Shown: piece by piece, positions 3,001 to 45,058 of the stretch
Layout: the number at the start of each line of letters is the position of its first letter
How positions within the stretch are numbered: position 1 is the first letter of the stretch
Origin: Cornus controversa
Taxonomy: Eukaryota; Streptophyta; Magnoliopsida; Cornales; Cornaceae
Assembly (NCBI GenBank): GCA_026545225.1
Contig: CM048845.1
Coordinates: 125,910,533-125,974,532, forward strand
Length of the DNA stretch: 64,000 nucleotides
Direction: 5' to 3'
Notes under the pieces: model-generated
Databases searched by the model: none
What the model saw: the letters and a program-made list of their open reading frames with translations, nothing else
What the model was told of the DNA's origin: nothing
Position numbers and translations under genes: made by a program

Positions 3001-5656
3001 AAGGCAAATTGCAAAGCACAAAATTAGGAGGAAAAAAATTTGCAAAGCACAAATTTGGACTTTGAGCTTGTAACTGAAAACAAGATTTAATTTAGGGTAA
3101 ATTACACTAACATCCCCTCCAGTTAAGCGAAATTAGATAGACCTCCCCTATATATTTTTAAAAAATACACTCACTACTCTTCAGGTTTATGTTTGGCTAA
3201 ACACTTTCCCCCCTTCCATTAACGGTTTAGGCTGGTCAACATCAAAAGTTTCTTAGGTCAGCAAAATATTTATTTAAAATGTCTTTTTTGCATTTGAAAT
3301 GCGTGTAAAGATAATTAAAAACTATTTTACACATAAGGGCAAAATTATTAATAGCGAGACCTGAGGAAAACAAAGATATACTTTGAAGCTAAAGCGCATC
3401 AGATTGTTTAACCTTCAGATGATCATATCGTGACCCTTCAACAAGGAGATCATTAAGAAAAGAGTTCCCAGGATTGAAGTATCTAAATTATAAGGGTTTT
3501 TTTTTCTATTAAAAATATATATACACAAAAAATTTATTTTTTATAAAAAAAATCTAGAATTATCAGTCTCAAATAAATTTCTCTTTTTTTCTAAATGGAA
3601 AATATATTTTTCATCTATGAACAAATCATTCATTGTTGAGAAAGAGTCCAATAAGGAAAAGCACCATATGCTGGTTGTTGACCTCCATATCACTGTATTC
3701 TTCTAATATACTATTTTTTCCCCAATTCTTACTTTTTAAATTGGAGCCTTGAAAGATATGAAACTCACTTATCAGCATCCAAAAGAGATTTTTAAAGTTT
3801 GAAACAGCACTTTAAAGGAGACGTTACAAGTAGAGTGGCGAAAAATTAAAACACAATCACTAAAAGCAGATAGTTTGAATATGTATATATGAACAATGTA
3901 AAACTTACTTTCTCTGATTTTCACTAGCCAGTTCTATCATACCATAAAAATGCAGCAGAATATAGTACTATTTTTCGGCTTGAACAGATTACTCTCCTGA
4001 TGTCCCTGGTATATTCTAAGAGAAGAAGGAATATTGCATTCTACTGCAGCAACAACAACAACCAAGCCTTTTTCCCAACTACTTGGGAATGACTACATGA
4101 ATCCTATGATTATATTGCATTCCACTGAAGGGTGTAAAATTTACCATTTGGAGCCATTGAGAACCCGCGGAAGAAAGTCGCGTTCAAACAAATGACTGAA
4201 AGGCCCATGGCCTACATCATGCAAGAGTCCTACAAATTTAAGCAATAATAGATGGATCAAATAACTTGAAATAAAGGCAGTTTACAAAATTTAATGATAG
4301 TTACCCGCAAGTTTCACTGTTTGTATATCAAAGTGATCAATACCAAGCTCATAGCCCTGCAGGAATGACAGGCATGTAAACAAAAATCCCTCAATCTTTT
4401 TCATATTGCAATTAAAATGATCAGTGCATGCAGATTCCATACTTGGTGACTTTTAAGTTTGTGAACAGCTTCACCAGCAAGCCAATACACCCCAAGAGAA
4501 TGTTCAAACCTGGAATGCACAGCCCCTGGATAAACCATGTGTGCCAAACCTGGAAATACACACACACAAAATATATATATATATTTGTCTTAAAATAAAT
4601 TTAAACCTTTCCAAGAAACACAATAGATAATGTATTAGATACTTCATGCTCAGGATACACTCATGTTCCATTTAATATCAAAGCCGTCCACATGGTCATG
4701 TACTGAGTGAAATACAAGGAGTAAAGGAGAAAAAAGAAAGAGATTATCTATCCATAAGCAATTAAGCATATATCATTTCCACAACGTTAAGAGAAGCTTC
4801 AAGCTCAGAGGAATTGATAAAATATCATTGATGATAGCCATGGTGGGTGAGAAGCAAACCATAAAAGTCAATAATAATTTCCTATTATATAAGCTATTCA
4901 CATCTTCAACATTTAGATGGAATAACTAGTTAGGAATCTGGTGTGGTATATATTCAAGTGTCGGACAGTCAAATTCTCAAACAAAAGGACACAAGAACAT
5001 TGCTAAATATTCATCTTATTTAATATTTTTATTTTACTTTCTAGATTAAAATAATGTCATGTAATATAGTGTTCAATGCATTTCACTCATTTTGAAGCAC
5101 TAGTATAATAAGGTGCATGTCCAACCAAAAACATTAGATGCATATCCCATACCTAGTAACCCAAGTCCAAGTATTGTGTCCCCAACACAGGTACTTCAGC
5201 TACAATTGAAGAGTCCACATAACATCTTTGACAACTCCCAATATTATGCATTACTCCCAAAAACAAAAACAATACAAGTGATGTTTCATAGCAGCTAGGA
5301 ATTTCATTTTGTTAATTAACTTTCTGAAATAAACAAAGACTAAATTTGCCACAAGAGCATAAGATTGCCACAACAACAATGATATATAAATAAATTATAC
5401 CAAAAAAAGAAAGGAATAAAAAATGAAATGAAAAAAAGAAAGAAATGAAGGAAAAGACCTTATGTTCATGCATCAATTGTTAAAGCCAGAATAGTAAATT
5501 AAACTCAAAACCAACCAAAATAAGAGATCGAAGTAAGAACATGTTAAAATCTGCCTTAACTAATATAGGTTGAATGCTTCAGTGGAAAAATAATAAATGT
5601 CACCAGAGAATTACTTGTCATCTAAATTTTTATTTTTATTTATTTTGTGTGTGTGT

Positions 5657-5689
<33 letters not shown>

Positions 5690-7707
5690 GGTGTTGTTGC
5701 GGGGTTGAGTACTTCAACTCCTGTAAGGATTTGTTTTTTTGCAAGTCATAAAGAGGGTTCATGGATCTACAAATTACCCATAGAATATAGCTAAGAAAGT
5801 CATCCCTGGACTAAATTAAAAAACAAAGAAGGTAGGGGTGTAGGGCCAGCTTTCAAGCCAAAAGCTGTTAGCATAAAGAACATTAATAATTAAACCACTC
5901 AATAAGGCAGATATCAGTAAAAGGGACAACAAGTCCTCCTGCAAAGATCTTATAACATAACCCACCTATATTGTCTGCATTATTCCAGCAAAAACATACC
6001 ATTCATGAAAACCTACAAACTCAGTATCTATTTATGTGATCAGACATAATATCCAGTGATTTAAACATAATCCTTAACTGGACCTACATCATCTGTCATA
6101 ACAAATATAGATTCCTTCAATGAACAAACCACCTTATCATATTCCTCAGTACAAGTACTAGATTTTATTTCTATTAACAATAATAGACACACACATTCAT
6201 AGAAGAGAGATTAATATACTTATTGTTCCTCTTAACTTTATTCCAAGTTTTAACATTAAACTTGGCAAATACTACTACCTTAATGAAAATTTTACTTGAA
6301 AATTTTAAAAATAAAAGAGCAAATGATGAATTTTCAAATAATGACTCCATGATACCATCCAAAGACATCCTTAATCCATCTCCTTATAATAATTGTGCTT
6401 TTCTGGCACATCAAATTATGCCTTTTCAACTATATTCTGAATCATAACATGATAGAGTGCCGAGAGACATAATTTGGTGAGGTTTAAAAATTAGTAGGAC
6501 TAAACTGAATATATGGAATATAAATTTAATAAAGAGTCCAATTTTGATAATATAATGATCACGCTTCAAAACCAAAAGATTGTCCACAATGACCATTTTC
6601 AATACTTAAGAGTCTATAATACAAAAAAAAATGGTGAGATAAATGGTGATATAATTAGTATAATTGGAGCATGTTGGACAAAATGGAGATATGCTAGTGT
6701 GATTTTATGCAATAAAAGAGTAACAAATAAATTAAAAAGGAAAACTTCATCGAGCAGTTATATGGTTCAGATTGATGGACTTTAAAAAAAGAAAAAAAAA
6801 ATTCATATGGCCGACCCCATTCATATGAGATTAAAGTAAGGATGATGATAATGAATTATATACTGAACCATCTAAATTACATTATCTTTTGAGCATTTAC
6901 TTTACAATGATTTGGCTCTTAAACTTATTTAAATAGAGTTCCTAACACAATTTCATTAATCAACTAGAGTGAAGCCAAAGGATAAGCCTAAAACTGAATT
7001 CATAACTATAAGAAATGCAGTGGGCCAGTGGCAATAGTTAGTTATGACCAAATTCTTAATGTTTGTGTAAGATGGACAACATCGGTAAACAATTCTCACA
7101 AGAATGACCAATTACTACATTTCAAACCTCATTGGAGAACGATTTCAATGTCAGGAGGATATCAAACTCACCAAGTTGTTTAAGTTCCCGAAGTCTGAAA
7201 TATAGCAATATAATCAAATCATTAATATCATTTCAATAAGTTGTAAAAACTAGCATAAGAGTCTCCCTGAAAAAATATCAACAACAAAAAAACACGGAAA
7301 ACAGAGAAAAATAAGCAGTAAAAATTAGGCAACTAATCTAAAACGTTATAGAATATAAACTCGCCTTTGAAATTCTTCAGTGTCTACGAACTTCAGAAAA
7401 AGCTGCAACCATAACAAAAACAGATATTAAATTATATTGACTGCCATAAAACTTAAGTTATAATTATAATAGTAATCAAGTTACAAATATACACCTGATG
7501 TTTAGTTGCAGCTAGTAAGTATAAATGAAAACATTAGAATAAAGAAACCAAAGGTAATCTAGTGAACTACACTCATGGGCTCTATACCTTAATCTAAATC
7601 CTTGACCTTTGTATATATGCTTGCTCTAATAAATGCACCAAATAACAGAAGTATATTATAATCAAGGCGCGCGCACACGGGCGGAGGGAGAGGGGGGCAA
7701 TGAAAAG

Positions 7708-7748
<41 letters not shown>

Positions 7749-17256: not shown

Positions 17257-19334
17257 TTAACGGTACTGGCTTGCTATTTCGCCGTCCTTGACAATGTAAT
17301 TTTGTGGAGGAAAATCTTCTCCCTTGAAGTACCTATCCAGCATGTCCTTCACTCCAGCCGCATATCGCAACTGCATCATTTCAATACTTTTATTTGAGTT
17401 ACAAACAAGGAACACAAGAAAAGAAGCAACGATCTTGTAATACAATAAAAAAATATTTAAAAAAAAAGCTTGAATACCTGCCCATCAATGGTAGTGCCAG
17501 AAATATGAGGGGTCATAGCTTGGTTTGGCATGTATCGCCATGGATGGTCCTTTGGAGCAGGTTGTGGGTTCCAAACATCCCCACTATAACCTAACAAGTA
17601 ACAATAAAAAGGAAAGCAAGCACCAGTTGAAGGGACAAGAAGATACTATTTCTGGTAGCTACTGGATTAATTTTGACATTGTTTATAGGAGAATTAAATA
17701 TGTTGATACCATGCAGTAAATTGTAAAAAAAAAGAAATCAAAAATGAAGAAATTACCTCCAATTTGTCCACTAGAACAAGCATCAACAACAGCTTGTGTA
17801 TCCATGATTGCTCCCCGAGCATTGTTAACAATTAGAACTCCCTTCTTCAGCTTAGCAATCCTATCTTTGTCAAACAGTCCTCTGAAGAAGGCAAACAATT
17901 AATCATTGATCAGAGTTGGTTTTGATTACAGTATAAACATGTTGCCTATGGTGTTAACAATAAGAACAAAAGATGATCATCATTTGATACAAATTATGGA
18001 TCAAAAGCAACTATCAACATATCATATCATATATATATATATATGTAGTTGAATGGAGATTGGGTGAGTATGAGAAGAAAGGATTACTTAGTTTTGTCCG
18101 TAAGAGGCATGTTGACTACAATTATGTCACATTTAGGAAGCATTTTGTCAAGATCCTCCTCAAACTTGGCCCCTGTTTGATTCTCGAAATCTGGATCCAT
18201 CTTGATCCGATCATGATATAGGAGATTACAGTTGAAAGGCTTCAAGCGTTGGAGTAAAAGCTTGCCAATTCGTCCGGCACCAATAGTTCCGACAGTCTTT
18301 CCTTCAAGATCATAAGCTCTGTAAGCAATACCTGCAACATTCCACTCTCCATTGACAACTTGACGTTGTCCCGGCACGAAATTCCTGACGAGAAGAAGGA
18401 TTCTCATGAGTTCATCCTCTGCAACTGACACTACATTGCTTCCGGTGATCTCTGCAACTGTTAAACCAGCAGCAGCTGCAGCCTTCAAATCAACATGGTC
18501 AGACCCAATTCCTGCGGTCAGCAGCAGCTGCAACTTTTTGGCCTTCTTGATCCTTTCAGCTGTCACATAGGCCGGATGGAAAGGGGTCGTTATCAGCACA
18601 TGGAGATCGGGAATATGCTTTTCAAGTTCTGCAACAAATCAAAAAAAAATAAAAATAAAAATAAAAACATAAGATTTGATTTAGTCTCAAATAATATATC
18701 AATAAGACCCAACTATTTTTAAATTTGAATTATGTATTAATTAATTAATTGTTTGTACAGACACACTAGTTAGTAGTTACCACAATCAGGTCCTTCTTTG
18801 TCATCAGTGACAATGTACTGGTGACCTTTTGATTCCAACCAGTCCCCTATGCCCAAGGCTCGTTCTACACAACCCACAAAATTGGGATTCAACGAAGCAT
18901 ATTCATTTGCTTTGTAAAACACACCAACAATCTTTTTGCTTCCAGGAGAGGACTGTTTGTTTGCAGTGAGAAAGAAAGATGAGCACACCACACCACACCA
19001 CACCAATCATAAATAATGAAAATTGAAAACTGCAGCAGACCTTTTTAATTACTTTGACAATTTGATGAACAAGTAGCTAAAAAAAATCATCTGTGATTCA
19101 GGTCCTAGAATAATACTATATAATTAATTTTGAGATTAACATCCATACATACATACATACATACATACATTTGGACGAGGATCGGAATTAATTTTGAATA
19201 GCAAATTGATAATCAAAATTGAGATTGGGAGTGATATAAAAATGGCTTACATGAAGGTGTCTAGTAAGAAGAGATGAAGATGAATTTCGGGACAGAGCAC
19301 AAGCACGAATAGCAGACGCAGCTACACGATTCAT
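17257..19334 (-). CDS. FDH: NAD-dependent formate dehydrogenase, mitochondrial (copy 1)
   Basis: Oxidises formate to CO2 with reduction of NAD+ in mitochondria. Exons (minus): 19251-19334, 18781-18952, 18088-18628, 17757-17881, 17478-17590, 17257-17370; 382 aa, the usual plant length. The first exon encodes an Arg/Ser-rich presequence ([17 protein letters not shown]) lacking acidic residues, as for mitochondrial import. Family key residues are present: Ile126 in TAGIGSDH, Asn150 in [10 protein letters not shown], the NAD glycine motif GAGRIG 202-207, Asp225 in LYHDR, Arg288 in NNARGA, Gln317 in NPQPAPKDH, and His336 and Ser338 in TPHISG. All introns are GT-AG. First of three tandem copies; it has C and L (RACALSR) where copies 2 and 3 have AFASPGIS in the presequence. 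A (GA)n run precedes the ATG. Active-site numbering is by analogy to Pseudomonas FDH. Confidence 0.95.
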
Positions 19335-29817: not shown

Positions 29818-32800
29818 TTAACGGTACTGGCTTGCTAGTTCACCCTCCTTGACAATGTAATTTTGTGGAGGAAAATCTTCACCCTTGAAGTACCTCTCCA
29901 GCATGTCCTTCACTCCAGCCGCATATCGCAACTGCATCATTCCAATATTTTTATTTGAGTTGCAACAAGAAATAGAACAAAAGAAGCAACAATACTGAAA
30001 TATAATAAAAATGGAAAATTCAAAGCTTGAAGACCTGTGCATCAATGGTAGTGCCAGAAATATGAGGGGTCATAGCTTGGTTTGGCATGTATCGCCAAGG
30101 GTGGTCCTTTGGAGCTGGTTGTGGGTACCAAACATCCCCACTGTAACCTAAAAATTTGGAATCAAAAGGAAAGCACTAGTTAAAGGGACAAGATTGGCAA
30201 GAACTATTGCAGTCCCTATACTCGCAAATTGAATACCTGAATTCAACTTGCTTTCCATATAGATAGAAAAATTAGCTCAATGTTATCATCATTTATTCTT
30301 ATTTTGATGTTTAGATTTGTCATCCATTCAAACCCACGATAATAAAGTGGCATCCAACAAAAAGGAACCTTAAAAAAGGAAGGAGAAAAATGAAGCATAA
30401 TAAATTTCATTTGATAACTAAGATGGAAACAACACCTCATCTTAAGTTGTTTAAAGGAGAAATATGTGGATACTATATAAAACATTCATATCCATAAAAA
30501 TCAAAATGTTGAAATTACCTCCAATGTGTCCGCTAGAACAACCATCAACAACTGCTTGCGTATCCATGATTGCTCCCCGAGCATTGTTAACAATTAGAAC
30601 TCCCTTCTTCAGCTTAGCAATCCTATCTTTGTCAAACATCCCTCTGAAGGCAAACCAGTTTTTTAATTAGTTTTGATTACAGTATAAACCGCCTATGGTG
30701 TTATTTAATAAGAACAAAATATCACCATTATTTGATACAAATTAGAACCACATAATAGATTGAAAGCAACATTAACATATCATATATGTAGCCTAGGTCT
30801 CAGATCATCACCCATTCAAAACATTGCGAGCATTTTGGCCAATTCAAGAGGCTGGATTGAATTCCCACCAATTATTAGATGCCAATATTAACAATTGAGA
30901 CCTATGTTGTTTTACATCTGAAACTTGTCATAACTTTCATTTAAATTTATCATCCATGTATATGGTAGTTTGCCAATTACTAATTGAAGAATTGAAAATG
31001 AACTCTTTAACTATACTAGTTGAAGACAGCTTGGATATGAGAAGAAAGGCTTACTTCGTTTTCTCAGTAAGAGGGGTGTTGATGACAATTATGTCACATT
31101 TGGGAAGCATTGAATCAAGATCCTCCTCAAACTTTGCCCCTGTTTGATTCTCCAATTCTGGATCCATCTTGATCCTGTCATGATATAGGAGATTACAATT
31201 GAAAGGCTTTAACCGTTGAAGTAAAAGCCTACCAATACGTCCAGCACCAACAGTTCCCACAGTTTTTCCTTCAAGATCATAAGCTCTATAAGCAATACCA
31301 GCAACATTCCACTCCCCGTTGATAACTTGATGGTATCCAGGCAAGAAATTCCTGACAAGAATGAGGATTCTCATGAGCTCATCCTCTGCAACTGAGACTA
31401 CATTGCTTCCAGTGACTTCTGCAACTGTTAAACCAGCAGCAGCTGCAGCCTTCAAATCAACATGATCAGACCCAATTCCAGCTGTGAGCACCAGTTGCAA
31501 ATTTTTGGCCTTCTTGATCCTTTCAGCTGTAACATAGGCCGGATGGAAAGGGGTAGTGATCAGCACGTGGAGATCAGGAATATGCTTTTCAAGTTCTGCG
31601 AGGAATCATAAAAACAGAAGATCTGATTAGTCTTTAAGCCAAGAAGCAATAACTTCATAATACTATTACTTTAAACAGTGACCCACTATTTTAACCATAT
31701 TGATTTTTGAACAATTTCAATTAATATAAATTGGAAAAAATTGCTTTTCATTTTCATCTCAGTAATTCGATATTACTTGTTCCATGAACTAACTGGCTTC
31801 TACTGTACTACATGACATGGTGGCTTCCCTGTTGAAGCTTACTCAAGTTAAGATATTATTCAGCTAGGTTTACATGTATGGAAGTGCATACATTATATAG
31901 AGCATTTTTGTCTACACACTTACCACAATCAGGCCCTTCTTTGTCGTCAGTGACAATGTACTGGTGACCTTTTGATTCCAACCAGTCCCGTATGCCCAAG
32001 GCTCGTTCTACACTGCCCACAAAATTGGGATTCATCGAAGCATATTCATTTGCTTTGTAAAAGACACCAATGATCTTTTTGCTTCCAGGAGAAGACTGTT
32101 TGCAATGAGAGAGCGAACAATGACCGCACCAATCATTAATGAAAACTGGAGGGCTTTACTTAGAGAAAGTGTTTTATTCTTAACATGGGGTTAGAGGTAA
32201 ATGCAATGAAATGTCCATGAATGGCCCAAGGCCTCTTGTTTTCAGTCTTTCAGATGGATATACCAAATAATTTATTCTTGAGGTAAATTATAAGAGAGAG
32301 GCTACAATATCATATCATCCAATTGTCAAAAAGCAGATAGCATTCGGTCATCCAACATGAACAAGTACACCGTTTTTGTGATGAAAGTAAATTATCCAAA
32401 ATTGCTTATATCAGAAAAACAGTAGATGATTATCAATATGTCACCCATAAATATACAAGCAGTAATAGTACTAAATTATTTTTTTCAATGAAAAATAATA
32501 TATGTTTAATTTACATGAGGCATGGCATATTTCAAAAAAAAAAAACTAGTGATTTCCAAAAGGTTGATAAGGTCAGCAATTTAAACATTGCAGCCATCAT
32601 TTGATAATTGATTTTCTTTGTAGAAATTACTCTCTAAATTTTAATTGGATAATCTTGATGAGAAGTCAGGTATAATCCAAAAACTTAAAAAGTCACAAAA
32701 GAGTCAAAATAAAGTATTGTAGCTCTCATTTTTACAGAGAGGAGTCTGTGAAAATCGCGATGCAGCATATGTGATTCACGACCTAGAACAACATACAACC

Positions 32801-34861: not shown

Positions 34862-36998
34862 TGTCAAGCCCCGAAATCCGAACCACTGGAACTCCCTTGG
34901 TCTAACCCCGAATTTCGAGTGTGAACTTGTTCATTCAACCACATAAACTATTCGAACACCAATCTCACATTGATATCATGTTACGATACTACGCTATCAC
35001 TCCCCGATTTTCGACTCTCAGAAACCGATGATGAACTCCGTCTATTAAGCCCTAATTAACCTTCCTAACTTCTCAAAACACCGCAGAAGTATAATTTTAA
35101 ACACGCACTCATGGGTACGTATACTTATCATCAATCTCCTCAATGGGCCCCACAATAGTCTATATACCTATACATGCTCACTCATATATCAGAAGTCACA
35201 AAATTTCATCCCAGGGTAGTTTTGGTCTGCTGATACTACCTTTCGATCGGTTGAAACCTGAGTTCAGCTGACCTTCAGAAAACTAATTATGTCGGTCTAC
35301 TGGAAAGTGGCTTTGGTCGACCAAAAGGATGCTTTCAGTAAGCTGAATCCCTCTTTTAGCCGTCCAAAACAGGTTCCTAAATTTTAAATGTTTTGGACCT
35401 CACACTTTTGAGCGAATGCTGCTGAGTCTAGGCAATCGAAAGTGTTAAAATGCCTGTAACCCATATTTTTTAAGTCCAAAAGCTCATGACAATAATACAA
35501 AATCATAATCCAGTCCAAATCATGATTAAAGTCCATTAAAAATGGTAAAAATCCACAATTTTCATCTATGAGTCCCAAATGGACACTTTGGGCATGTAAC
35601 CCCCCATTATTCATCTAACGCCTTCTAAAAACCTTAGAATCATCTATACAATGCATCAACATAAAGAGATTTACAATCCCACAAGTCCATACATCACAAG
35701 CCCACCAATTTGGATCAAAACTTACACTTTATACAAATCCCATAATCACAATCCATTTACATTCCCCATCTATCATCCTCATAAGATACACAAATGATTC
35801 ATTCATACATTTCATAACAATGTCTTTACAAGTTCATAGTCATAGTTTGAATTACATGCATATAATCCAAAAGCATCACAAATTCATATATGACTACAAT
35901 TAACATAAATCCTCATGCCATAAGTTGGCACAAGTAGCCAAATCCATAATATCCAAAATGAAGCAAAAATGCCATAAAGTACTCTACTTGAGTCATTCAA
36001 GTCTCGTCCGTTATGAGCGCCTTATCTGTAAATAGTTTGGAGAAAAAGGGGTGAGCAGCTTAATGGTTCAATAAGAATACTCCAACCCACCTAGGTGCCA
36101 ACTCAACACTGACCTACATGAATGTGTGCCATTACACTACATGTCATTTTCAACATTTATATGTTCATTCAAACAATGCATATTGAAAAAAATGCATTAA
36201 AACATATATCATACTCAACATATGATCACATAAGCATAAATATATAATTTTTCTCTCTCGAACCTAACCTATATCCCAACATGATTTGGACTGCTCCGAC
36301 GAATCATGTGACCTTGGACATTTCTGATAGATTTGTATGACTTGGACAATTCCGACAATGTCATACTTTATTGGTAATATGTTGGTTTGCCTTAAGGTGA
36401 GTAGACAACTCTGACAGCTCACCACATATGGATATAATTTGGTTATAGGCTTTAGCCTTGGTATGATGGGACCACTCTGACGGTCATCCCTCATTAATGC
36501 CACTTACATAGCATGGATGAACCTCTCCGACATTCCATACATGGTCCATTTCTCCCGTTCTCTCACACAAACCCCATATATGCATTTCAAACATAATATG
36601 TCTAGCATGTCATTTTCATGTTTCTCAAATGCACAAGCTAGTTCTAAAGGTACATAATATGCATTTCTCACCACATAAACACATATAATCATATATATGT
36701 CAAAACTTGCATATTATTCACATATGCCTACAAACCTCCAATTTAACATATATCGTTCATGCTTCACCAAATTTATATACTTGCTACATATAATTAGCAT
36801 GCATTTTACATTACATCATCAACATATAATCACATACATGTTCATTATTACACATAATCATGTATGCACACAAAATTAGCGTATAGGTATTCATGCTCTC
36901 AACTTCACACATTTCACACGCTAGCCCTCATGTTATACATATCACAAGGTATATCAATTTTTTATAGGAAGAACACAAGGAGAGGAGAAAATATTACA
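34862..36998. mobile_element. Possible LTR-type sequence or other non-coding repeat
   Basis: A GC-richer, non-coding interval begins TGTCAAGCCCCGAAATCCG, a phrase like the start of some plant gypsy LTRs, and could end at TATTACA near 36998 (TG...CA). No matching target duplication, primer site or protein remnant was found, so the class is uncertain. It contains the hairpin series at 36281-36538. Confidence 0.33.
36281..36538 (+). repeat. Series of short hairpins with a shared loop motif
   Basis: Five sites share a core like GGAC-NN-CTCYGAC between arms that differ from site to site yet pair with each other: ATGATT/AATCAT (36281-36307), GTATGAC/GTCATAC (36335-36366), GGTGAG/CTCACC (36396-36423), ATGAT/GTCAT with a G-U pair (about 36463-36486), ATGGA/TCCAT (36513-36538). 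A sixth core near 36314-36330 has no clear stem. Function unknown. Confidence 0.6.
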
Positions 36999-37329
36999 TC
37001 CCACCCCTTTCACTACTCTCATTTATGCAAAACTCACCCATCAGCCCTTTTTCTGCCACGTCAGTAATAACACTTGAAAAATTTTTCTTGGCCCTATCTT
37101 GCTTGAAATTTCATGCTGATTCCAATTTCCCAGTCGATTTTCTTATTTGAAATTTCTAAATAGCTCAAAATGAGATTTCTCACCCCACAATGAGATTTCA
37201 ATTTGGGCCTTCACTCAACAGATATTATTTTTCTTTCTGGCCTTCACTCAACAGAAACTCTTCTTCTTTTCATCGCAATGGTGGTAACAAATAGCGAGCA
37301 TAGTCATTTCAACCCAAAACTAGTGAACT

Positions 37330-40300
37330 TTCCTATAGATACTGTCGCAAATCAGGACATACAATTGAGGAGTACTTCAAACTTACTAAACCTCGTAATG
37401 CTGCAGCTATAGCTACCACGGAGACAGTGTCATCTTATCTTTCTCCTTCTGTACCAGTTACTACTCCTTCTGAGGAGTCCCCATTTACATTTTTTTCTGC
37501 TGATCTGGAGGTAATTCTCAATTAGGTTCTATCCAAGCAATCAGGTTCAAGCTCATCTAACTCTGCCTTCTCAACTACTCCAGGTACACTTAATTCATGA
37601 TTTTATAACTATGCTTACTATAATCATATGACACCTAACCATACTTTGCTCACTACTCAGACTCCTACATCTCATGCACTTGTTATTCACACAGCTAATG
37701 GCCCCACGTACTATGACTATTAGTCACATAGGCACGGTCTCTCAGTCAGATTTATTTATTCCCAATGTTTATCTTATTCCCAATCTTTCTTTTAATCTTT
37801 TGTTTGTTGGTTAATTCATTGAGTTAGGTTTGAATATAACATTTTTCTTTAATGGCTATGCTGTACAGGATTCTCAGATAAGTCAGATCATTGGGATAGG
37901 TCGTAAGATAGGGCTACTATTTGAGCTTTCTTCCTTACATCTACCTAGTTCATCTCTCACACTTACATCTACACGAAGTAGTATACATACTATTGAGTTG
38001 TGGCATTCTCGTTTGGGTTATGCATCGGTATCTCAAGTCAAAAGTCTAGTATCTAAGGGTTTGTTACGATCAGTTAAAATTGAGTCTTTTGATTTTATGT
38101 ATTGTCAATTAGATAAACAATTTGCTTTACCATTTAATAACAGTGAGTCATTTGCTTCTTCTCCTTTTGATCTTGTTCATTCTGATGTTTGGGGACATTC
38201 TCCTGTAGCCATCATGGGTGGGACACGATATTTTGTTATATTTCTGAATGATTTTTCACGATTCACTTAGATATTTTTAATGAAAAATTATTCTGAATTA
38301 CTCAACATCTTTTGTGATTTTACCAAAAATGATTTCAACCCGATTTTTCACAAATATCAAAACTTTTCGTTCTGATAATGCTACGAAATATAGGCAAAAC
38401 GATTTTCAAAATATCTTCAAACAGTATGACACTATTTTTTACTCTTCTTACCCTAGTACATCATAACAAAATAGTCAAGCTGAATGATAAGTGCACAAAA
38501 TTTGCTATTTTATATCCTAAAATAAGTTTTTAATTACTTGTTTATTTTATTTAAATGTTCTTATCTTTTCATTTTATGTTTTATAGGGGTTGATTTCCAA
38601 ATAAGAAGAAAATCAACAAAAAAAGACTGAAAATGATATATGTAACCAAAGATAAACATAAAAAGAATTGTAGAAGAGATGGTATTCTGTGCAATATACT
38701 TTACAAGATGTCTCAAGTTCAAAACTTTATAAAATATTTGTTACACAGTCACGTCTGCAGTCCAGAATTCAAATTGAAGATATGAAGATCAAATATTAGA
38801 TATTTAAATTCAAAATTTTGTATTTTGTATTTTTGTTTTTAAATTTTATATTTTTTTTAGCAAGTTTTATGCATTTATCACTGAACGAAAATTTTGACAT
38901 ATTTTAGATTTGACTCGATCACTTTTTATTTCTTCTTCTGTGGCATCATCTTTTTGGGGTGAAACATCTCTCACTGCTGTCTATACCATAAATCGTATAC
39001 TCACATCACTTTTACAAAATAAAATATCCTATGAGTATCTCTACGAGTAGATTCCTGATTATTGTAATCTTAGAGTTTTTGAGTGTGCTTATTTTGTTCT
39101 TCTTCATCATTGTGAGTGAACAAAATTATAACCTCATGCTCAGCTCTGATATTTTCTTGGGTATGAACTTGACCAAAAGGGATATAGGTGTTATGATCTA
39201 GTTGAGAGACGCCTTAGAGTCTCTTGTTATGTTATGTTATGTTTTGGGAATATAAAATGTTTCATACCTTATACAAATTCTTTTTTTTTACCAATTTCTT
39301 ATTCCTCCTTTGATACATATGTAGATTTTTTTCTAGATTCTCCTCCTACTAGTTCATCAGATATAGTTGACCCTTCTGGCTAATCATATATGGTTGACCC
39401 TCCTGCAGTTGAGTTTTATCACCTGTCCTGCCTGAGGCTCCTGATGCTACCACTGTTTTGGGTTCTCGTTGATCCACTCAGGTAAGAATTTCCCCTACAC
39501 ATCTTCATGACTATAATTGTTATCATGCTCTTGCAACCCTTTATGAACCTCACACTTTTCGTGAGACATTCTCTAACCCTTTATGGTAGCAAGTAATGAA
39601 AGAAGAGTTGGATGCAGTTGCCCAGACTCAGACATGAGATCTAGTTGAATTGTCTCCAGTGAATTCTGTCATTGGATGTAAATGGGTTTGCAAAATTAAG
39701 ACTCGTTCAGATGGGTCTATTGAGCACTATAAAGTCCGACTTGTGGCAAGGGGGTTCACACAGGAGCATAACATCGATTATGAGGAGACTTTTGCTCCTG
39801 TTGCTCGTCTTCCTTCTGTTCGTACTCTTCTTGTTGTGGCTGTTTCCCGTCATAAAATTTTTTAGATGGATGTCAAAAATGCCTTCCTCAATGGTGATTT
39901 GCTCGAGGAAGTTTATATGAAGCCTACTCCAGATTTTGATCATCCACCTCATGAGATTTGTCTGCTTAAGCATGCTCTGTATGATCTTAAACATGCACCT
40001 TGAGTTTGGTTTACCAAGTTTAGTTCTACTATTTCTCGCCTTGGCTATTCTACCAGTACATGTGATTTAACTTTATTAATCTAGCGTACTACAAATGGTT
40101 TTATTCTTCTCTTGCTTTATGTTGATGATATAATTATCACCGGGGATGTTACTCAGGGTATTTAGGAACTTAAGCAGTTTCTCAACTATCAATTTGAAAT
40201 GAAAGATCTTAAACCTTTCGGTTATTTTCTTGGCCTAAAAATTACTAGAGCTACTAATGGTTACTACCTTACTTAAGTAAATTATTATTCCGATCGTCTT

Positions 40301-42761: not shown

Positions 42762-43613
42762 ATAAAATTGAAAATGTTGAAGAAACTAGGTACCTCCAAT
42801 TTGTCCACTAGAACAAGCATCAACAACAGCTTGTGTATCCATGATTGCTCCCCGAGCATTGTTAACAATTAGAACTCCCTTCTTCAGCTTAGAAATCCTA
42901 GCTTTGTCAAAAAAGCCTCTGAAGAAGGCAAACCAGTGGTGTTAAACAATCATATATATATTTAGAATAGAATAGAATAGAATAGATTGAAAGCAACATC
43001 AACATCAACATATACTTGCTTTGTTTGCTCCGTAAGAGGTGTGTTGATGACAATTATGTCACATTTGGGAAGCATTTTGTCAATATCTTCCTCAAACTTT
43101 GCCCCAGTTTGCCTCTCCAATTCCGAATCCATCTTGACCCGATCATGATATAGGAGATTACAGTTGAAAGGCTTCAATCGTTGAAGTAAAAGCCTCCCAA
43201 TACGTCCAGCACCATAAGTTCCCACAGTCTTTCCTTCAAGATCATAAGATCTATGAGAAATACCGGCAACATTCCAGTCGCCGTTGATAATTTGCTTGTG
43301 TCCGGTCAAGTAATTCCTCACAAGAATCAGGACTCTCATCAGCTCATCCTCGGCAACCGACACTACATTGCTTCCGGTCACTTCTGCAACTGTTAAACCA
43401 GCAGCAGCTGCAGCCTTCAAATCAACATGATCAGAACCAACTCCAGCTGTTAGCAGCAGTTGTAAATTTTTCGCCTTCTTGATTCTTTCCGCAGTAACAT
43501 AGGCCGGATGGAAAGGGGTCGATATCAACACGTGCAGATCAGGAATATGCTTTTCAAGTTCTGCAACATTAATTTTATCAATTCATTCAATATTACAAAT
43601 CATGACATGCATG

Positions 43614-44311: not shown

Positions 44312-44677
44312 TGCTCGCTTGCGTGTGTGCATGGTAAGAAAGTAGTCCTCATCTCCACACCGTCCGATGCCTGCAAGATTTGACGATTGGATTTGGTGCC
44401 CTTTAGTTCTCTTCAAAAATCAACGAGGAGGTGGCAAGTTTCAATTTGATTTCTGTTGCTGGTGATCTATGGCGATTCGTGACCAATTTGTTTTTGCTCG
44501 CTTGCGTGTGTGCACGGTAAGAAAGTAGTCCTCATCTCCACACCGTCCGATGCCTTTAAGATTTGGCGATTGGATTTGGTGCCCTTCAGTTCTCTTCAAA
44601 AATCAACGAGGAGGTGGCAAGTTTCAATTTGATTTCTGTTGCTGGTGATCAATGCCAATTCGTGACCAATTTGTTTT
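44312..44677. repeat. Tandem duplication of FDH3 upstream sequence, 183-bp unit
   Basis: Units 44312-44494 and 44495-44677 are nearly identical. Each carries the CACCGTCCGATGCC and GAGGAGGTGGCAAGTTTCAA segments that occur once upstream of FDH2. This is therefore a recent doubling of conserved promoter-distal sequence. Confidence 0.9.
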
Positions 44678-45058
44678 TGACCAGGATAGTTTGTCAAAAA
44701 AAAAAAAGTTTGTCTGCAAATGGGAGTTCGCGGAATAATATCTATATTACATTTAAGTCTGGTTTAAAATGTATTTGTTTATCTGCAGTCTAAAATTATT
44801 TTATTTCATCATCTAACGATTATGATTTTAAGTGAATTATAGTATTGTAAGCATGAACATACACCAATGATCAATGGCGATTCGTAAACAATTTGTTTTT
44901 GACAAGGATAGTTTAGTTTCGTCAAAATAGAAGAGTTTGCCTACAAATGGGAGTTCACCAAATAATATCAATATTACATTCAAGTGTAGTTCAAAATGTA
45001 TTTGTCTATTTACAATATAAAAATAATCTGTTTAATCATCTAATGGTTATAATTTTAA

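Follow-up and report, generated by a model that had tools for sequence, protein, structure and literature searches.

Serial hairpins that carry one loop on differing stems in a Ty3/gypsy long terminal repeat of Cornus controversa

The stretch of the Cornus controversa genome considered here (assembly GCA_026545225.1, contig CM048845.1, positions 125,910,533 to 125,974,532 of the forward strand; "the window" means all 64,000 nucleotides of it) holds an array of short hairpins in which one loop sequence recurs on stems that differ from site to site, and the array lies in what its sequence identifies as the decayed, truncated long terminal repeat (LTR) of a Ty3/gypsy retrotransposon. On the minus strand, a core close to GTCRGAGNNGTCC is found at six places, A, B, D, E, F and G, whose best Watson-Crick stems measure 5, 4, 6, 7, 2 and 8 bp, respectively. 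These features are listed below; helix numbers refer to A1, the 40 sequences of the window's own subfamily, and bits are covariance-model scores.

34862..37040, minus strand (element sense): truncated LTR, Ty3/gypsy chromovirus-like, with its sense 3' end, of the GGGGCGTGACA type, at 34862
36511..36540, minus strand: unit A, core 36531-36519, arms ATGGA/TCCAT, 5 Watson-Crick pairs, A1 helix 1, 17.9 bits
36460..36490, minus strand: unit B, core 36481-36469, arms GGGATGA/TCATACC, A1 helix 2, 37.1 bits
36395..36424, minus strand: unit D, core 36415-36403, arms GGTGAG/CTCACC, 6 bp, A1 helix 3, 23.1 bits
36334..36367, minus strand: unit E, core 36356-36344, arms GTATGAC/GTCATAC, 7 bp, A1 helix 4, 19.6 bits
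36316..36328, minus strand: place F, a core that is stemless in the window (2 bp)
36279..36309, minus strand: unit G, core 36300-36288, arms ACATGATT/AATCATGT, 8 bp, A1 helices 5 and 6, 34.9 bits

A preliminary description of this DNA had reported five loop-plus-stem sites and a sixth, stemless core, and all of these are present. The hairpins are real, but the stem at 36288, with its 8 bp (ACATGATT/AATCATGT), is longer than that description allowed, and the pairing it gave as ATGAT/GTCAT consists of 4 Watson-Crick pairs and one wobble on the plus strand. Its statement that the arms change and still pair holds insofar as they differ and pair; they are not unrelated, however, since ATGA/TCAT-like arms recur in most units. 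The stem of unit B is eroded in the window copy, the majority of relatives having GGTATGA/TCATACC. The view of the sixth core as decayed agrees with the paired hairpin found at place F in the diverged loci L048, L063, L067, L069 and L077 (e.g. AGTGTT/AACACT). What the preliminary description saw was the array, not its retrotransposon LTR setting.

At least 5 Watson-Crick pairs are formed at four of the six window cores. When the same six positions were scored after dinucleotide shuffling of the 320-nt region, repeated 5,000 times, 0, 1, 2 and 3 stemmed sites were obtained in 4,088, 843, 63 and 6 shuffles, respectively, and four sites in none; chance, for which the preliminary description had proposed this very control, is excluded as the source of the window stems. 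Folding of the 320-nt region as a whole is not exceptional (z -1.90 on the plus strand and -1.05 on the minus strand). In other words, the region folds only slightly better than its shuffles, so the signal is the placement of stems around cores rather than overall stability. Rfam 15 gave no match at its gathering score on either strand of the 64-kb window.

What kind of element carries the array? Every count reported here comes from one genome, the window's own (771.7 Mb), and a first look at it returned 816 candidates, with all 40 that were scored matching, the window's own place included. Homology between the window and other loci of about 9 kb (20 copies fetched) covers positions from about 34861 up to about 37040, and in other copies it extends further upstream than in the window. 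The window LTR is without about 0.7 kb of its sense 5' end, the part that bears a TATA-like box in other copies; for example, in L023 the window match begins at 3660, the LTR at 3003 and the box at 3349. Stop-to-stop pieces of L022 and L023 match RVT_1, RT_RNaseH_2 and SH3_Tf2-1 upstream of the repeat and on the GTCRGAG strand, so element sense is the minus strand of the window; the order of pol pieces upstream of the LTR is reverse transcriptase, RNase H and integrase C-terminal region. Locus L009 likewise matches RT_RNaseH and SH3_Tf2-1. Matches to Chromo, whose curated cut-off is 25.1, score 17.4 bits in L009 (E 0.0044) and 15.1 bits in L022 (E 0.022), and an integrase-core piece (L023:2008-2469) has no Pfam match. 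On the gag side, L025 matches a retroviral protease and, below threshold, gag, and pieces of L016 and L025 contain CCHC motifs, each motif being interrupted by a stop codon. The LTR starts with TGTAGAGAC and closes with GGGGCGTGACA, an end pair of the TG...CA type that in L023 encloses 2,860 bp (3003-5862), and in 5 of the 20 large loci an LTR end is followed by a TGGTATCAGAGC-like primer-binding site, which we take to match initiator tRNA-Met. Together, the pol pieces, the LTR ends and the primer site identify the repeat as the LTR of a Ty3/gypsy element, so that the array recurs as part of a large family.

By LTR length alone, about 2.86 kb in L023, a Tekay-like element fits: in the available parts of one paper, the LTRs of Beta Tekay elements measure 2561-3000 bp, one shortened copy excepted (PMC3605345). 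A search for target-site duplications of the 5-bp type returned none that is convincing at the window LTR. We rejected a solo LTR with duplications of GTAAT, since the one GTAAT/GTAAT pair does not flank the LTR end common to other copies, and the window copy is not an intact LTR, its homology stopping near 37040, short of the LTR start. As a separate observation, the sense 3' end of the LTR is repeated in L012, L016, L020, L021 and L023 in steps mostly of 131-134 bp, the inner copies having a GGGGCGTGACA-type close, after which a primer-site stretch resembling TGGTATCA comes in most cases. In L022, pol pieces are followed by an LTR and then by a primer-site-like stretch, perhaps an LTR common to two tandem elements.

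The array stands downstream of a conserved TATA-like box. A ATTATAAATATCTAGGG-like box, sought with up to 3 changes on the sense strand of the 20 large loci, is present in 16 of them and was not found at that threshold in L018, L026, L027 and L028. It lies 759-1,002 nt upstream of the unit E core in 15 loci, the sole match in L010 being far from the array, and it occupies LTR position 346-379 in the 11 loci in which the LTR start was also found. In L023, where the array occupies 4135-4458 and the box lies at 3349, the array is about 0.8-1.1 kb downstream of the box. If the box is a promoter, the array would belong to the 5' leader of the transcript, and from these positions we infer that it is transcribed there.

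The core and its stems extend well beyond the window. Genome-wide, GTCRGAGNNGTCC occurs 1,096 times (566 + 530) versus 183 (80 + 103) for the reversed pattern. From the first contig we sampled 40 loci out of its first 45 core clusters, chosen by the exact core regardless of stems, and among the 51 exact cores in these loci the stem score is at least 4, 5, 6 and 7 in 46, 41, 34 and 15, respectively. At the same cut-offs, shuffling the flank letters gives means of 11.5, 3.8, 1.1 and 0.4 (maximum 8 at the cut-off of 5), and dealing right arms among units gives 30.7, 19.6, 10.4 and 3.1 (maximum 28 at 5); the second control is high because units share arms, and chance is excluded for these loci as well. 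Long alignments place 36 of the 40 loci in one group and L051 and L053 in a second, leaving L084 and L086 each alone with a stemless core, and two of the five cores that score below 4 are those of L084 and L086, the sole loci outside every LTR group. Many diverged loci have 6 to 8 core-like sites, some without stems. L074 and L079 have an apparent extra unit, and one is missing from L070, L073 and L081, as though by fusion within a core; such apparent gain and fusion loss suggest that arrays are copied unevenly. The small group of L051 and L053, we observe, carries the core with related hairpins, e.g. ACATGATT/AATTATGT and AGTATGA/TCATACT.

For a covariance model, R1, a pool of 151 units was narrowed to 47 that have at least 6 of 7 pairs, with a maximum of two per left arm; six were then removed by hand, one of them non-array. 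The remaining 41 all come from outside the window, and pairing in the model is high by choice. At E up to 1, R1 has 5 matches in the 64-kb window, all in the five hairpin sites of the array, and 110 matches in 244 kb, of which L020:2072, L026:2177 and L027:294 are non-array and six lie in a second, more diverged array of L028 (L028:5947-6211). Because 13 of the 41 units came from the large loci, the window is the sole independent test.

Mean pairwise identity was compared for stems, for the core, split into its 11 fixed and its two free positions, and for spacers. Over all columns of A1, these classes score 0.897, 0.820, 0.750 and 0.803, respectively; without CpG columns they score 0.900, 0.876, 0.793 and 0.815, and in A/T columns only, 0.954, 0.980, 0.784 and 0.849. 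The raw A1 core is barely above the spacers because it contains CpG. The second set, A2, joins 28 of the 40 core loci to 10 A1 sequences, the window copy and 9 of the other 39, which makes 38 in all; its values without CpG columns are 0.802, 0.802, 0.666 and 0.673 in the same order. We read this as stems and core having been held while the family was active. In the sense fold, shuffling the core letters changes the energy from -7.73 to -8.29 kcal/mol and shuffling the flanks to -4.83 kcal/mol; a core shuffle that leaves the fold no weaker, and a flank shuffle that weakens it, suggest that the core behaves as a sequence presented by the stem. The same result lends no support to an inner GGA/UCC mini-helix as a fixed part on the sense strand.

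Do the two sides of the stems change together? In A1, 91.7% of cells are paired, in the sequences and in their shuffles alike. In A2, whose core loci were picked for long arrays after their stems had been seen, so that the paired percentage is flattered, 1,166 of 1,471 cells are Watson-Crick paired versus 1,092.7 (sd, standard deviation, 8.6) when whole arms are dealt within a place, a level reached in 0 of 1,000 deals. Cells changed on both sides number 63 versus 29.5, which 0 of 500 shuffles reach; lineage alone yields many false pairs, however, as a loose scan of all columns makes clear (of 39,369 column pairs it passes 182, of which just 3 belong to the structure), and we therefore do not rely on the 63-cell count. 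A stricter scan passes 68 of 39,369 column pairs and 3 of the 40 structure pairs (p = 5e-5). One of the exchanges, F2 (columns 249-298), was discounted because place F is stemless in one lineage, and without it 2 of 39 structure pairs pass (p = 0.002). Among 37 sequences, the outer pair of unit A is A-U in 17 and G-C in 12, the outer pair of unit D is U-A in 17 and G-C in 13, and E7 is U-A in 17 and C-G in 13; a G-U route is possible for the first and the last of these. A weaker fourth exchange is D6 (G-C 10, U-A 8 of 37). Across the genome, the unit D outer pair is T..A 108 times and G..C 48 times, and of the mixed forms G..A, the one counted, occurs 6 times. The exchanges observed are of single pairs. 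There are, in sum, a few events of stem-pair exchange between subfamilies, and the evidence for them after correction for shared ancestry is modest.

We propose that the array serves a Ty3/gypsy chromovirus-like retrotransposon as a multivalent cis-acting RNA element, a reading to which we give an even chance of being correct. Each short stem would present the same loop, GUCRGAGNNGUCC in the sense direction; the loop would be the recognised part and the stem would merely hold it open, in which case stems may change as long as pairing stays. Five to about seven copies in about 260-330 nt would provide many binding sites per transcript, and several loop copies would give avidity while the stems drift freely. 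On this reading, it is the sense RNA that would do the work. What, then, might bind it? By analogy, the ligand could be the element's own Gag/nucleocapsid, acting in packaging or dimerisation, although we consider this identification doubtful. HIV-1 (human immunodeficiency virus type 1) nucleocapsid binds an exposed or weakly paired G in GGAG, according to the available parts of PMC7395439, and the available parts of PMC4974528 describe a Ty3 nucleocapsid with one CCHC finger and a nucleocapsid domain that is required for packaging of genomic RNA. It is conceivable, and we put it forward as a speculation, that the array represents a new retroelement cis-element in which one conserved loop sits on freely changing stems, whole units are gained and lost, and Gag or a host RNA-binding protein docks on plant chromovirus transcripts.

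A number of results weigh against this proposal. Within A1, double changes number 1 versus 2.8 in shuffles, and there is no compensation. Those two A2 measures that shared descent inflates least are weaker: pairs changed on both sides number 13 versus 9.5 (24 of 500 shuffles) and further pair types 43 versus 40.3 (59 of 500 shuffles). At the strictest cut, the scan leaves one trusted structure pair (p = 0.04); D6 is paired in just 20 of 37 sequences; the two unit D exchanges are double transversions that lack a wobble step; and RNAalifold on A2 returns 20 pairs, none of them array pairs. Three loci of the main group, L055, L071 and L072, have stemless cores. Finally, the minimum free energy is lower on the antisense strand in 187 of 291 units and on the sense strand in 99, and antisense z is lower in all five segments folded both ways, slightly so in L048 and L069. 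The suggestion in the preliminary description of selection for structure thus fares unevenly: between subfamilies, both sides of a few pairs are exchanged, but stem changes within the window's own subfamily are not compensated. There, genomic stems do vary without keeping their pairing, which that description had named as evidence against itself, though uncompensated stem decay is expected of dead copies.

The fold results raise an alternative that we judge improbable, namely that the hairpins act on the other strand or as DNA, whether in an antisense transcript, in folding of minus-strand cDNA (complementary DNA) in the course of reverse transcription or as palindromic protein-binding sites. 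For three-hairpin segments, sense z is -2.72, 0.01, -0.08, -0.87, -0.42, -0.02, 0.60 and 0.86, with -0.75 for the window; the five also folded antisense give -2.86, -2.87, -0.70 and -3.09, with -3.09 for the window, and the L061 array gives -3.84 antisense versus -2.50 sense. This better antisense folding could include an inner UUGGA/UCYGA helix, possible on the antisense strand, whose U-G pair is C-A on the sense strand. Core position 4 is G or A; in A2 it is A 43 times, versus 10 times T at the neighbouring C (54 versus 33 in A1), a count favoured by the search pattern, which itself permits A at position 4, and a change to A at that position keeps a G-U pair only on the antisense strand. Shuffling the core letters also slightly weakens the antisense fold (-8.08 versus -8.66). 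Wobble counts, on the other hand, mostly speak for the sense strand in the well-paired pairs of A2, where sense G-U exceeds A-C by 81 to 42 cells (p = 6e-4; 15 versus 10 per pair, p = 0.42; another count gives 94 versus 43 cells), and on terminal tree branches, where changes from Watson-Crick to G-U outnumber those to A-C by 48 to 31; on internal branches the balance is 7.6 versus 15.8, over all 41 pairs of A2 it is 101 versus 119, and A1 gives 43 versus 73 over all pairs and 43 versus 40 in well-paired pairs. Strand preference is, in short, mixed across several tests. The TATA-like box is on the sense strand, the one strand searched for promoters, and a fixed DNA-binding site would need no compensating changes.

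Two further explanations dispense with a function for the loop, and we hold both to be quite improbable. Template switching in quasi-palindromes, by reverse transcriptase or DNA polymerase, could rewrite one arm from the other; such switching can make and maintain hairpins, as the available parts of PMC8794818 describe, and the unusual copying mechanism raised in the preliminary description stays among the serious rivals. It could account for the symmetric double transversions of unit D, which have no wobble intermediate, and for units gained (L074, L079) and lost by core fusion (L070, L073, L081), but it leaves unexplained why core and stem are better conserved than spacers and free loop positions. 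Moreover, two of the four exchanges relied on, A outer and E7, can pass through G-U, and the 40 A1 sequences contain no matching recent changes. Alternatively, an old inverted-repeat unit may have been duplicated in one ancestral LTR and kept by descent only, with no function. The ATGA/TCAT-like arms common to units, the tracking of two lineages by much of the apparent covariation in the loose scan, and the uncompensated decay of A1 copies all fit such a history; it is harder to reconcile with stem columns, and non-CpG core columns, that are better conserved than spacers in both A1 and A2, with the enrichment of structure among passing column pairs, or with the rarity of mixed G..A arms at unit D.

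To return to the cis-acting RNA element, how does it compare with known systems? Like the packaging leaders of retroviruses and Ty3 (HIV-1 psi, for example), the array would equip a retroelement RNA with several hairpins in its 5' leader. The hairpins of those leaders differ from one another, whereas here a 13-nt core is repeated at least five times on different stems, within a long LTR. The bacterial sponge RNAs CsrB and RsmZ, in the parts of their literature available, share serial hairpins, a GGA loop motif, varied stems and many binding sites; unlike the array, they are small RNAs that titrate CsrA in another domain of life, and we claim no homology. Tekay chromoviruses resemble the host element in their Ty3/gypsy pol pieces and LTR length (about 2.86 kb in L023), and the word "hairpin" has no occurrence in the main text of the Beta Tekay paper (PMC3605345). 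Template-switch hairpins (PMC8794818) have arms that change together and stay complementary, and the coding palindromes of Nematomorpha are perfect inverted repeats kept within genes (PMC6649704); in the parts of these two papers covered, neither has a serially repeated common loop motif. Among the matches listed in the open-access literature, which leaves subscription papers mostly uncovered, no such array is described, and the exact core string returned, among the matches listed, one unrelated Escherichia coli paper, available in part. We call the array a putative structured retroelement leader with an unusual layout, one loop on many stems.

If the proposal is true, the array would supply a candidate signal for the packaging or docking of abundant plant chromoviruses, and its copies would amount to a natural experiment in which a loop is held while its stems drift. 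The data could also help in telling template switching apart from selection for pairing, and so bear on the question of how stems stay paired.

Elsewhere in the window, 2-Hacid_dh and 2-Hacid_dh_C domains are found in three similar exons on the minus strand (18084-18638, 31051-31605 and 42962-43582), which we take to be formate-dehydrogenase-like and which apparently represent a tandem gene triplication; the LTR remnant sits between the second and third of these exons. Adjoining the remnant is a Copia-type gag_pre-integrs piece (37815-38270, plus strand), with similar DNA in L010. Two pure and unusually long homopolymers, 30 G at 5659-5688 and 39 C at 7708-7746, are possibly assembly or sequencing artefacts, and at 44312-44679 a 183-bp sequence is duplicated head to tail in two copies with 95% matches.
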